The notes under the pieces were generated by a model that worked only from the letters and a program-made list of their open reading frames with translations, was not told the origin of the DNA and searched no databases. From Plicaturopsis crispa FD-325 SS-3 (Eukaryota; Basidiomycota; Agaricomycetes; Amylocorticiales; Amylocorticiaceae), in contig KN832564.1 in the NCBI GenBank assembly GCA_000827205.1, forward strand, positions 756,682 through 820,681: a stretch of 64,000 bases of DNA, read 5' to 3'. Of this stretch, positions 43,963 to 53,056 are shown piece by piece; within the stretch, counting starts at the first letter, position 1, and every line of letters starts with the position of its first letter. A program made the position numbers and the translations under genes.

Positions 43963-45212
43963 TTACCGCCCCGCTAGCCCCTCCGTCTCCGCGATCCGAT
44001 ACACCAGTTTCTCGCCGTGCACCTTCCCACTCTTGAGCAGCTCCATGCCCTCATCGACACCGCCGAGCCCGCCGGGGACGATGCGCACGCGGTTCGGCTT
44101 GAAGGTGCCATTCTCGACGAGCGGGGACAGCGCCCGGAACCTGCACCAGTCGCTGAGCACACTTGAACAAAGAGAGGACGGAGGCGACGCACATCTTTGC
44201 AGCGAATTCAGCGTCCTCGCCGTACGCCGTGCGCGGCTGAAAGGTAGCGGTCAGATCGGGTTAGTGCAGGCAAGATAAACAACCCACCCCCGCGCGCTCC
44301 GTGCGGACATTGTCCGGCACCGCCACGCCCTCCGGGATGCTGAGCACGTACGCGTAGCACCCGCCGGTCTCGCGCAAGAGGTCGATACCTATCTCAATCG
44401 TCTCCCCCTCGCTGACCGCATCGACTACATACAAACACGGTCAGCCAGGGACACGCGCACGTCAATGACCCACGCACAGACATGATGCAGCTCCCCGTGG
44501 CCCTGCAAAGCAGCCTGCACCTCCAGCACAATGTCCGCGGGCGCCTTCCCGCGGTAGTCAACGACCACATCGGCGCCGAGGCTGAGCGCGACGTCCGCGC
44601 TCGCGCCTGCAATGCCGACGACGTACAGTCCCGAGAGCTTCGCCAGCTGCACCACGTACGCGCCGACGCTGCCCGCCGCGCCATATACCACGAGCGGCGC
44701 ACCGTCCGCGGCAGCGCCGTCCGTGAACGCGGGCAGGCGCAGATACTTATAGAGCCCGAAGAACGCTGTGGCGGCGGCGAGCGGGAGCGTCGCAGCGGCC
44801 TCGAACGGAGTGCCGGGCCCGAGCGGGAATGTCGTGTGCGCGGAGGCGGTGGAGTACTGCTGGTAGGCGCCCCACTTTGGGTTTGCCTGATGCGTGCGGG
44901 TGAAGGCCGCCACCTGGAGGCCTTCAGACTCATAGATAGACTGAGCATGCCATGTGTACACACTTTGTCCCCCTTTTTGAACTCGCTGACCCCTTCGCCG
45001 ACGGCCTCGACGTAGCCTGCGACGTCGTTGCCCTCGACGGTCTCGAGGCCGGACAGAAGGACGACCTTCCAGTCCTTCGGGTTAGACGCGACGGCTACGT
45101 TTTTTATAAGGACTTCGCCTGGCCCAGGGGGCACGACGTCGAATTGGCGGAGGGTGCGCGAGGTCCGCGTGAAGAAGACACCGAGCTGTTTAAGTGGTAG
45201 CGGCACGGACAT
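43963..45212 (-). CDS. Medium-chain dehydrogenase, quinone-oxidoreductase-like
   Basis: An NAD(P)H-dependent medium-chain reductase (zeta-crystallin / trans-enoyl reductase class). The N-terminal GroES-like part reads LKQLGVFFTRTSRTLRQFDV, VLIKNVAVASNPKDWKVV and VEGNDVAGYVEAVGEGVSEF. After an intron the domain continues VAAFTRTHQANPKWGAYQQY and FEAAATLPLAAATAFFGLYK. The Rossmann dinucleotide site is VVYGAAGSVGAYVVQLAKLS. Next comes SLGADVVVDYRG, then an end with GTFKPNRVRIVPGGLGGVDE and KSGKVHGEKLVYRIAE. There are no zinc-ligand cysteines of classical alcohol dehydrogenase type, so it fits the zinc-free enoyl/quinone reductase class. The substrate is unknown. The start at 45212 gives MSVPLPLKQLG. 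Confidence 0.9.
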
Positions 45213-45687
45213 GGTGAGCGGCTGGAGTGGGTGTAAAGTGTTGCGACGCACCGTTTATATGGGACTCGGGCATCCAAGTGGATTCAAAATGCAGCTGGGC
45301 AGACCCACAGTGCTCTCCGACGTGCGAGAAAATGAGCACAGTGTCATCTGGCACAGTCTTCACTTCTGTACTTTGAGCGTTCCAGTCAGGTTGGAGTCGG
45401 TAAAGCCGTTCGAGACAAGTTCGAGCACAACTCACATAAGTATAGACTCGATCCCAGATATAAAGGTCACCCGCTGCAGTACCGCCGTAAGCACTGGATC
45501 AAAGGTACCAGCTTGGTACTGTACCAGCTTCGACTTGGGTGACTTGGACGCGGGGTTTCTTGGTGCGTCTCGGTCAATCTCAGTCATAATGCGTCTTGCT
45601 GCTCGTCTGACATATGAAAACACTTCCTGCACTTTGCACATATCATAACAGCTACTATCTGTTTGTGCCACTCACGTCGAGATCGAA
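45213..45687. promoter_or_regulatory. Divergent promoter region
   Basis: 475 nt between the divergent ATGs of the oxidoreductase and the nucleotidyltransferase-like gene. A weak palindromic TACCAGCTTGGTACTGTACCAG phrase lies near 45508-45530. No gene. Confidence 0.45.
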
Positions 45688-46604
45688 ATGGGTGGCAAGG
45701 CGTTCCAGCAACTGGGTCTTTCTCTCAGCGCCTTTCCGCGTCTCGCCCCCGCCGTATATCTAGCGCTCAAAGCGCGATTCCAGCCCTCTCTTTCCCCTCT
45801 CTTCTCCCTCGTTGGCGTCCCAGCAGAAGCCCCGGAGAAGCGCGACCACGGTGATATTGATTTCATCGTGGCAGGCCCATCGGAGGGTGTCGGGCACTTG
45901 CAGGTAGCGCAGGCGCTCGGCGCGGTGCACAGATTGGAGTTCGAGGTCACATCACACTACGCAGTGCCATTGAACGAGGAGTGGTGTGTAGGCGTCGGAG
46001 AAGAGGAAAGGTACGTGCAGGTCGACGTGCATGTCTGCCAAGACAAGGATGAATGGGAGCGCGTCTTATTTTTCCATGGCTATGGGGACCTGGGAATGAT
46101 GATGGCTGCGCTCGTGCGCCCACACGGGATGTCTCTTGGTACCAAGGGACTCAAGGTAAGTCGCACAATAGCTTCGTATCTGTCCATGCAGTTTTACACC
46201 CGTACACTGTTTCTGGCACGCGAATAATAGCAATGTTGCAGATTTCCCCGATGCCGCACACGCTCCCGCCCTTCCATCTGTCTGATAAACCTTCATCGAT
46301 TCTCGCATTCCTGGGCCTTGCACTGCCGAGTGCTTTCAAAACGCAGCGCGCTGCGTTCGAGTGGGCTGCCACGTCGTGGCTATTTGATCCCGCGCGGCTG
46401 GAGAAGCCCAAGGACTTTTCTCCTGCGACTCAACTTAGCCAGGGTGATCAATCTGAATCAGCACTGCCCACTTCAAATGCCAAATCTCGGTCAAAAGAGG
46501 CACGAGGGATGTATCAGGCCTTTCTCCGCTGGGCAACACACCAGCCACGCTCCAGCACCACTTGCCCACTACCATCCGTCGACCTGACTGCCGACCCCGC
46601 TATC

Positions 46605-46743
46605 TGGCCGAACTCAGACGTGACTTGTCCCTGTGAGTTCGGGGACTCAAGATGCGTGCAGGAGGGTGACTAAGCACCCAGCCTCTTGTTCTCGTACTAC
46701 AACAATCTCCCCTATTAATCGTCCTCCCGACGATTCGCGTTTT
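46605..46743 (+). repeat. Ngaro split repeat A1
   Basis: 139 nt, starting TGGCCGAACTCAGACGTG. It is apparently identical to the copy at 49199-49337 (A2) and is the left terminal repeat of the element. Confidence 0.9.
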
Positions 46744-47751
46744 GCCGACGCCATCATTCGCATCTTCGAGTCGTACGGAATCCGCGACATCCTGAAGTGG
46801 GTGGACGATTTTGTCTTCTTTCGGTCTCCTTCCGATCGTGTGGCGGGAGGGCACGGCTACAATATTCGTGCGCGCCAGATCTTTGAGATCGCGGAGCGCC
46901 TCGGCTGGCCATGGAATCCGGCCAAGCACACGTCGTTTTCGAATGAGTTCACATACATTGGCTTTCTGTGGAATATCTCGGCGCGATCTGTCGAGATAAC
47001 TGCAACAAAGAAAGCGAAGTTCCTCGTTAAACTCGACTGCTGGACGGCGTCCGCCAAAGTGTCCCGGAAGGACTGTGAGTCCTTGGTGGGTACTCTTAAC
47101 CACTGTTGCTATGCAGTGCCCTCCGGACGTTCCCGCATGCCCTCGCTCTATCGTCTCACGTCTTCATTTCACTCAAGCACATCTACATTCATGCGACACC
47201 ACATCCCTCGAGACGCTCTGCGCGATGTTGAATGGTGGCGCGAGGTTCTGTCGAAACCGTTCTGTGGCCACATCCTCCGCTCTCCTCTGCCGGTGACTCC
47301 GCTTTCCATATTCGTCGATGCCTCTACCAGCTGGGGAATCGGTCTGGTCATTGAAGGGAGGTGGTTTGCTTGGCAGCTTCTGCCCGGGTGGAAGACAGAT
47401 GGCAGGGACATCGGCTGGGCGGAGATGATCGCTGTCGAGCTTGCTGCGCGGTTCCTGGTCAGTTCTGGATACCACGACTGTCACTTGCTTGTTCGCTCCG
47501 ACAATCAAGGTGTCATCGGAGCTCTCAAGGGTGGTGTCTCTCGCAATGCCCAGCAGAACTCGTCCTTGCAGCGGATTACGAGCCTCCTGTTTGGGGCATC
47601 GCTGCAGCTGTCTTGTGAATATGTTGCGTCTGCAGTTAACTGTGCCGACGCGCCGTCCCGAGGAATCTTCCCGCATGCCAACCTACGTCTCAAGCCTGTG
47701 TTTGACATTCCGTCTCGTCTTGCTCCGTTCTTGCGTACATACCACCCTTAA
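46744..47751 (+). other. Reverse transcriptase/RNase H region of the element
   Basis: Partial polymerase region of the Ngaro-type copy. RT signature WVDDFVFFRSP is followed by thumb-like sequence, then an RNase H domain with IFVDASTSWGIGLVIEG and LLVRSDNQGVIGALKGG. It belongs to a broken element, and no product is implied. Confidence 0.85.
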
Positions 47752-47886
47752 CGTGTATATGGCTTATTTTCGAGACTCTATCCTTAGCGTATATGTTTTT
47801 GTAACTATTTGTTCGCGGACACATCTTATTGAGTGCCCTGCAATGGGCTGAACTGAAATATAGACCGTCAGCCGCTAGTCTGTATT

Positions 47887-49021
47887 GTGTCGTCGCGGGC
47901 ATGCCCGCTGCCTCCTGAAGTCATGACGAGCTCCATCATTGCCCTGAACTCCTTCCAGAGGGATGTGCTGGGCACTCGCGTCTCTACCGGCCTCCCTATT
48001 CGCACAGAGCGCACCGTTCAGCACCGGTTTGCTCCAATGCGCCGTACTTCGAGGCCAATCCACCAAACACAATCGAGGGTCGACGGACCATCTCCCTTCT
48101 CTTTACCTGCAAGTGTCCTGCTGGCTACAGAACTCGTCATCAAAAAGTCCTGGGCGGGCGACACTCTAACCGGGTACTCTGCGGGGGTCAAGGCCTTCTC
48201 TGTGTTCTGCGATGCGTACGATGTCCCGCTCGCAGACAGACTCCCGGCCTCCGAAACACTTATCTGCGCGTTTGTCGCATCCCGTGCGGGAAAGTACAAA
48301 GAGACGTCTACTCAGAATTGCGTGTCCGGCGTCAGGGCTTGGCATATCACCAACAATGCGCCGTGGGTCATGGGTCTCCGACTTCGACAAACGCTTCGCG
48401 GTGTGCACGCGCTTGCTCCCAAAGGTCTGCCCCCGCGTCCACCAGTCACCAGCGACATGCTGGTGATACTTGCGCAAGAACTCGATCTCTCGAGCCCGCT
48501 CGACGTCTGCGTCCTGGCTGCGGCTACTTCGTCACTGTGGGGCCAGGCGCGCTTGGGCGAGTTATTCTCGCCGTGGGCTAATTCTTTCGACGGAGGGTAC
48601 ATACCCTTGCGCTCGAGTCTCGGCGGACCGACGACGGAGGACGGCTCGCGGCCCCTCCATCTCCCTTGGACGAAAACTCGGAAAGCCGCAGGCGACGTAA
48701 TCATGATATGTCGTCAGAACGGCGCGTCTGACCCCGTCGACGCGCTCGAGCGTCACCTGCTAGTCAACAATCCGCCCGCAAACATTCCTCTATTCTCCTA
48801 CAAGTCCGAGGCCGGTTTCACCTGTCTGACGAGAAAGCGGCTGCTTCTGGTCTGCAACCGGATTTGGGAGAAACACGGATTCGTGCGCATTCAGGGTCAC
48901 TGCCTGCGCATCGGCGGGACGACTGAGCTGCTCATGCGCGGAGTCAACCCGGAGATCGTCAAGTCTATGGGCCGTTGGTCCTCGGACGCGTTTCTTCTTG
49001 CCTCTGCCTTCTGGGTTTGGG
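47887..49021 (+). other. Tyrosine recombinase region of the element
   Basis: The core of a lambda-integrase-like recombinase. There is a helical N-terminal part (ATELVIKKSWAGDTLTGYSA), then SLWGQARLGELF with the first catalytic arginine and HCLRIGGTTELL with the H-x-x-R pair. This domain, together with RT/RNase H and split repeats, identifies the Ngaro/DIRS group. It belongs to a broken element. Confidence 0.85.
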
Positions 49022-49061
49022 TGTGTCTTCGCAAGGCTCGTCAGCGCCTTCGTCTTGCAGT

Positions 49062-49199
49062 GGGTTTGCCCTTCGCCTACCCTCGACACACTTTCAGGTC
49101 CTGGCACCAGCTGAGGATTCTCATGCGAAGCCAGGCCTCCCCCCAGAACTTGAGCAAATGCGTACAACAGCAGACACGAATGCACGCCCATCCTGAGTT
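49062..49199 (+). repeat. Ngaro split repeat B1
   Basis: 138 nt, beginning GGGTTTGCCCTTCGCCTA and ending CCATCCTGAGTT. It matches B2 at 49421-49558 by eye. It abuts A2 at the shared T (49199). Confidence 0.9.
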
Positions 49200-49337
49200 G
49201 GCCGAACTCAGACGTGACTTGTCCCTGTGAGTTCGGGGACTCAAGATGCGTGCAGGAGGGTGACTAAGCACCCAGCCTCTTGTTCTCGTACTACAACAAT
49301 CTCCCCTATTAATCGTCCTCCCGACGATTCGCGTTTT
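49199..49337 (+). repeat. Ngaro split repeat A2
   Basis: 139 nt, the internal copy of A1, placed between B1 and an 83-nt spacer (49338-49420) that precedes B2. The B1-A2 junction reconstitutes the sequence expected of a circularised A/B joint. Confidence 0.9.
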
Positions 49338-49420
49338 TCTGCACCCACCCACCATCCCTTCTTTTGTAGTTGTACTAGTGGATAATGTGGTTCTGTTACT
49401 GTATTCGTTTGCTCGTCTAA

Positions 49421-49558
49421 GGGTTTGCCCTTCGCCTACCCTCGACACACTTTCAGGTCCTGGCACCAGCTGAGGATTCTCATGCGAAGCCAGGCCTCCC
49501 CCCAGAACTTGAGCAAATGCGTACAACAGCAGACACGAATGCACGCCCATCCTGAGTT
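49421..49558 (+). repeat. Ngaro split repeat B2
   Basis: 138 nt, identical by eye to B1. It is the right terminal repeat and ends at the shared T next to host sequence CACAGACGCC. Confidence 0.9.
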
Positions 49559-49932
49559 CACAGACGCCATCTCCCGTCATCACTTGCGCACTCACGCATT
49601 TCTCCCTTCTACGCGAGTATGACGAGCTCTTGTTATCCGTAAGGCGCCGACTGTGCGCGAAACAGGTGTGGGGCGGAGAGCGCGTCCGCACCTGGATCGA
49701 GGAGGACATCATCGCGAACAGGGACGTCGAGGGAGACTCGGACGCACCGCCCCGATATCACTGGAGGCTCGTCAAAAAGGTGATGGATAGGGTAAGGGAG
49801 CAGCTTGGCGGCGACGAGGGCGTAGGCGCGCTGGGCCTCGAGGGAGGCGTCGAGGCGGTGAAGGGGGCCGTGATACGATGTTGGAGGGAGATTGACGCTG
49901 AGCAACGCGTCGCACTCTCGTCCGATCAGTAA

Positions 49933-50300
49933 GCAAGGTCTGTTGAGCACGTCGGTATGCGCATCTTCCTCGATCTCGTTGTCTTATTGTAGCTGTACGT
50001 CGGTCTTGAATTATATTATACAAATGCTATATGATATCCCGCAATGTCATCGCCAATTTCTATGTTGCTGCCACTGCGAAACTTTAAGAATCGAAAAGCC
50101 AACCGGTCAACCGGTCAACTGCGCCACAATTGTGACATTGGAAAGACCTCAACGGCGAGGTGATCCTCATCTATTGCCGTTGTTGTTCAGACTGCACGTA
50201 GGAAGGGCTGAATTATGTAGATTCACGAGGGTAAGGGAAACAAGTACTGGATGCATTTATTACGCTACAGGATAGTGGAAAGCAGGAGGGATAGAGAAAA
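49933..50300. other. Convergent 3' region
   Basis: 368 nt between the nucleotidyltransferase-like gene's stop and the cullin stop. A direct duplication CCGGTCAACCGGTCAAC is at about 50103-50120. No gene. Confidence 0.5.

Positions 50301-53056
<2,756 letters not shown>

Follow-up and report, generated by a model that had tools for sequence, protein, structure and literature searches.

A recently inserted, defective Ngaro retrotransposon in a predicted single-copy gene of Plicaturopsis crispa

We report that a stretch of 64,000 nucleotides from Plicaturopsis crispa FD-325 SS-3, called the window throughout, carries a recently inserted and defective Ngaro retrotransposon. The element spans positions 46605-49557 (2,953 nt) and is bounded by two pairs of direct repeats in the order A1-body-B1-A2-spacer-B2 (Table 1). 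Very probably it is a tyrosine recombinase (YR) retrotransposon of the Ngaro group whose recent insertion hit exon 2 of a host gene present in single copy. The kind is already known; this insertion adds a good example of it and no new kind.

Table 1. Features of the host gene and the inserted element (positions in the window).
Feature	Position	Strand	Remarks
Host exon 1	45688-46155	+	156 codons; open frame; single copy
Host predicted intron	46156-46241	+	GTAAGT...CAG
Host exon 2, 5' piece	46242-46604	+	121 codons; interrupted by the element; joins the 3' piece via one T
A1 repeat	46605-46743	+	final 5 nt of A missing (full length 144 nt, as in the relative on contig C4); 139/139 nt identical to A2
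RT/RNase H frame	46744-47751	+	335 codons plus stop; starts just before the WVDD box; N-terminal half of RT absent
YR frame	47887-49230	+	C-terminus is read-through into the repeats; catalytic Tyr absent
B1 repeat	49062-49198	+	137/137 nt identical to B2
A2 repeat	49199-49342	+	length set at 144 nt from C4; A1 matches 139 of these
B2 repeat	49421-49557	+	right end of the element (...GAGT)
Host 3' piece with stop	49558-49932	+	single copy; its sole open frame is the one continuing from exon 2

Results

A search for direct repeats upheld the order A1-B1-A2-B2 that an earlier note had read from the letters, and the repeat pairs, described there as identical by eye, proved identical on measurement. 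A1 matches positions 49199-49337 of A2 at every one of 139 nt, and B1 matches B2 over 137 of 137 nt when the ambiguous last T is assigned to the host; with that T counted, the B pair (49062-49199 and 49421-49558) extends to 138 nt at 100% identity. B1 directly abuts A2. The length of the spacer between A2 and B2 depends on where A2 ends: it is 83 nt counted from the 139-nt match and 78 nt for an A2 of 144 nt, the length in the relative on contig C4. Within window positions 44500-52500 there was no inverted pair reaching 20 nt.

The element's RT/RNase H frame is 84% identical to that of the C4 copy; against two other genomic copies the identity is 50% and 37%. It keeps the WVDD box of the RT together with VDAS, VELA, RSDN and AD, which we take to be the RNase H motifs. 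The YR frame aligns with the tyrosine recombinases of other genomic copies and retains the Arg, H-x-x-R and GRW motifs; the catalytic Tyr, present in all four other aligned YR copies, is absent from it. These domain assignments rest on the motifs, on alignment to copies from the same genome and on a Pfam RVT_1 match of the C4 RT (E 2.8e-5, under the curated cut-off). Pfam gave no significant match for the window RT or YR frame, nor for the C4 YR or two C4 gag-region frames, and no match to a methyltransferase, a protease or a DDE integrase in the window frames or the four C4 frames. A FIGL1_N match to the window RT frame (Pfam, 0.075) lay below the cut-off and was taken as chance. With NCBIfam one of five pieces, the window YR, found a weak match (E 0.12), and PDB sequence searches returned nothing significant for the window YR (best E 0.22) or the C4 RT. 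In the viral contigs, the B-A junction as an exact 21-nt pattern gave no matches and no relative, and the C-terminal 352 residues of the RT/RNase H frame from C4 gave two pattern matches, neither of them confirmed. The assignment to the Ngaro type made in the earlier note stands, with split repeats and both RT/RNase H and YR frames found, but the element is not whole, a point that the note does not make.

Relatives were sought in the assembly of 33.2 Mb and 49 contigs. The A repeat was found by DNA search at four places (two in the window, two on C4) and the B repeat at five (two, two and one remnant on contig C11). Protein searches gave at least 11 RT and at least 11 YR matches, among them the window copy itself and one copy counted in several pieces. 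Among the matches listed there is one relative of the same subfamily, on C4, along with further Ngaro families. This C4 copy (C4:755105-761270, minus strand, 6,166 nt) has identical repeats (A 144/144, B 106/106), an open RT/RNase H frame of 735 codons, a gag-like part in which zinc knuckles can be made out by eye and a YR frame that changes part-way. No intact member of the window element's subfamily was seen in the assembly among the matches listed (the C4 YR is broken). The copy at C10:111395-117518 has A and B pairs matching at 157/158 and 141/141 nt, and the copy starting at C10:103305 at 199/199 and 280/280 nt; these two distinct Ngaro families lie less than 15 kb apart (C10:103305-117518). 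The remaining copies that we inspected, on C34, C7 and C6, are split or contain stop codons, or their sequence passes into N. Fully identical repeat pairs were found in three of the four measured copies, and the fourth shows one difference in 299 nt, a further listed difference lying beyond its GAGT end and being assigned to the host.

Two side observations concern these copies. At a distance of ~0.2 Mb, on the contig that also carries the window element, lies a lone B remnant of 83 nt (C11:1007443-1007525; L046:2944-3026) that is 92% like the window B and ends in GAGT. In addition, both of the two copies scanned, those at C4 (L005:7508-7584) and C10:111395 (L042:2021-2220), contain short tandem repeats. 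Their units measure 20-32 nt and are rich in pyrimidines on the gag strand, and the repeats lie within the first frame of the gag region or at its end.

The ends of the copies define where the element stops. The five right ends read GAGT/T in the window, GAGT/G in C4, GAGT/C in the C11 remnant, GAGT/G at C10:117518 and TAGT/T at C10:110377. In three of the five the next base, G or C, differs from the first T of A, so that the end is resolved as GAGT; the window and C10:110377 ends are followed by T and are ambiguous. Because the resolvable right ends read GAGT and then G or C, the T at 49558 is most simply a host base. This moves the end of the element, placed at 49558 in the earlier note, to 49557 as the simplest position, and a reading of the single shared T mentioned there as a feature of the element is not supported. 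On the left side, TGG is preceded by C, G, T, A and C in the five ends available (window, C4, C10:111395, C10:103305 and C34, respectively). The left flank of the C10:111395 copy reads GAGT before TGG, leaving that boundary ambiguous by 4 nt; here the insertion may have involved a short match to the circle joint, and the sites are so few that no rule follows. The joint AGT/TGG occurs at the B1-A2 border of the window, C4, C10:111395 and C10:103305 copies. Common to copies of three families, it may mark the joint used by the recombinase.

When the host flanks are joined with one T, the predicted reading frame runs open to a stop at 49932, giving 401 codons with one predicted intron. In this join, exon 2 and the 3' piece together form 245 codons, 124 of them beyond the junction. 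A join with no T meets a stop after 148 codons and one with two T after 142, so that the claim of a same host frame on both sides of the element was borne out by the one-T join, the only one open to its end. No target duplication was seen at the insertion, as judged from this join, which bears out the absence claimed earlier. With the insertion, the predicted host protein of 401 residues would be reduced to 299, of which the final 22 are read from A1. Both flanks are single-copy in the genome search, and neither an empty second copy nor an empty allele of the host gene was found in this assembly.

That the two pieces belong to one gene has a good case, although not an overwhelming one short of an orthologue. 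The element's own end predicts the one-T join, and exactly that join stays open for 124 more codons to a stop; of the three frames of the 3' piece it is the one that is open, and its GC3 (0.75) exceeds that of the others (0.68 and 0.45). The alternative, two unrelated frames whose open join is accidental, could draw on the finding that the frame of the 3' piece stayed open by chance in 725 of 20,000 trials of a first-order Markov simulation, and on the lack of a protein relative of either piece in the libraries searched, but we regard it as very improbable.

The description of the host gene as nucleotidyltransferase-like is unproven. Nucleotidyltransferases carry the signature hG[GS]-x-DxD with its usual Gly-Gly/Ser step. 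The sole motif of this sort in the host is VGVP...DHGDID (VGVPAEAPEKRDHGDID), a short G-x-DxD look-alike without that step. The host pieces gave no significant match in Pfam, NCBIfam or the PDB sequence search, the last returning none for exon 1 and a best E of 0.37, not significant, for the joined protein, and the fold predicted for exon 1, with no relatives in the input, has a pLDDT of 36.9, too poor for a structure search. A DUF7939 match to exon 2 (Pfam, 0.093) was below the cut-off and taken as chance. The neighbours are, next downstream, a cullin gene on the minus strand (window 50774-52284; PF00888, E 1.1e-71 and 8e-46 in two pieces), and just upstream, also on the minus strand, a zinc-binding dehydrogenase-like frame (window 44428-44961; PF00107, E 5.5e-7, just under the Pfam cut-off).

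Set against the C4 copy, the window element is doubly deleted. Its bases 139 and 140 correspond to C4 bases about 3.2 kb apart, and the ~3.2 kb absent between them comprise the 5 nt that A1 lacks, the 5' leader, the gag region and the N-terminal half of the RT. At the end of the YR a further ~131 nt are absent, from inside the GRWxSDAFL motif to just beyond the C4 stop codon, and the catalytic Tyr, which follows this motif in the four other aligned copies, falls in the missing stretch. Since the N-terminal half of the RT and the YR tyrosine are absent, the window copy should not, from its sequence, be expected to make a functional RT or YR. In the region of the A2-B2 spacer and the beginning of B2, the window copy has ~93 nt that are missing in C4, which is therefore an imperfect yardstick.

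We found no difference among 276 compared repeat positions, which sets a 95% upper bound of 1.08% on repeat divergence. Fungal substitution rates range from 1e-9 to 1e-8 per site per year, at which the insertion would be, loosely, younger than ~5 to 0.5 million years. The young age proposed in the earlier note is thus supported by the 0/276 differences, but the age bound is loose, with an upper limit of 1.1%. A strain polymorphism, which the earlier note raised beside a dispensable host gene, is therefore possible, though not implied, and gene conversion could be an alternative source of identical repeats.

Between the window and C4 copies we obtained dN 0.11 and dS 2.15 for RT/RNase H and dN 0.105 and dS 1.86 for YR, with synonymous sites near saturation. 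The low dN relative to dS indicates that both copies descend from lines selected for protein, and the sequences suggest that these are old, separately maintained lines. At the ends, 132 of 142 aligned bases are the same in A, 61 of 67 in the stretch before B1 and 116 of 135 in B (A1 identity was taken from BLAST, as a MAFFT gap after base 68 understates A1 in the first two intervals of the comparison). Fourfold sites are the same at 58 of 151 positions in RT/RNase H and 42 of 126 in YR. As a control we used the pair C10:103305 and C34, in which A agrees at 185 of 199 positions (93%), fourfold sites of RT/RNase H at 91 of 184, with dS 1.3, and gag third positions at 65-74%; C34 reads N before B1, and the pair covers A, RT/RNase H and gag. 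Being somewhat less diverged than the window and C4 copies, and in gag less still, it is a fair control and not an exact one.

Discussion

By analogy with the YR mechanism described for DIRS1 (PMC3266345), the RNA of the element would have been reverse-transcribed, the resulting DNA circularised through the B-A joint AGT/TGG and the circle integrated into host exon 2 by YR recombination. We slightly favour the view that both deletions predate the insertion, so that the copy would have been moved in trans by the proteins of another Ngaro. A helper of this kind is assumed because no intact copy of the same subfamily was found among the matches listed.

The main rival holds that a complete Ngaro inserted and lost its gag/RT part and its YR end afterwards. 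In its favour, only one copy with these deletions appears among the genome matches listed, and the remaining frames and repeats are otherwise undamaged, which is expected of a recent insertion either way. It needs, however, two separate large deletions within a time that left 0/276 repeat differences. Moreover, several 5'-deleted Ngaro copies without ORF1 are described for Cafeteria in PMC8547959, and deleted forms thus appear able to spread. Both points tilt us towards pre-insertion deletions, and we give the later loss somewhat less than an even chance.

A different account sees the window copy as a chimera, with C4-like ends placed on a distant Ngaro body by template switching and with the deletion points as the switch points. 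Indeed, the ends of the window and C4 copies are far more alike than the fourfold sites of their bodies, with the step at the two deletion points, and composite Ngaro elements are mentioned in PMC3783388. Yet both deletion points are borders between coding and non-coding DNA, where such a step in identity is expected, and the control pair shows the same contrast between ends and body with no chimera needed. Conserved function of the ends is for this reason the simpler reading, and we consider a chimera unlikely. Taken as a whole, the scenario in which the element arrived doubly deleted, as a non-autonomous, parasitic Ngaro keeping only its ends and moved in trans within the last ~1% of divergence, possibly as a template-switch chimera with C4-like ends, seems to us evenly balanced between true and false.

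The insertion is a sign of recent Ngaro activity in a compact genome of 33 Mb, and through it a single-copy host gene is predicted to have lost its C-terminal 124 codons. A defective copy with perfect ends also offers a natural test of Ngaro proteins acting in trans.

Among known systems, DIRS1-like elements (PMC3266345) resemble the window element in that a YR integrates them by way of a short circular junction, with no target duplication. They have inverted terminal repeats, internal complementary regions and a methyltransferase domain, and the window element differs in having no inverted repeat pair (44500-52500). The Cafeteria Ngaro type 2b (PMC8547959) has likewise lost part of its 5' side, ~2 kb covering ORF1 in several copies; the window element differs in being hit also in RT and YR and in being one copy among the matches listed. 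The order A1-body-B1-A2-B2 is that given for Ngaro in PMC8547959 and PMC3783388, the latter describing Ngaro in basidiomycetes. With these Basidiomycota Ngaro the window element shares the A-body-B-A-B repeats and, as remnants, an RT with RNase H and a YR, and the C4 relative shares a gag-like zinc-knuckle frame (by eye); the window copy differs in lacking gag, the N-terminal half of the RT and the YR tyrosine. Finally, within a cluster, alignment is described in PMC3783388 as reliable for coding DNA only, whereas here it is the ends that align better than the coding DNA.
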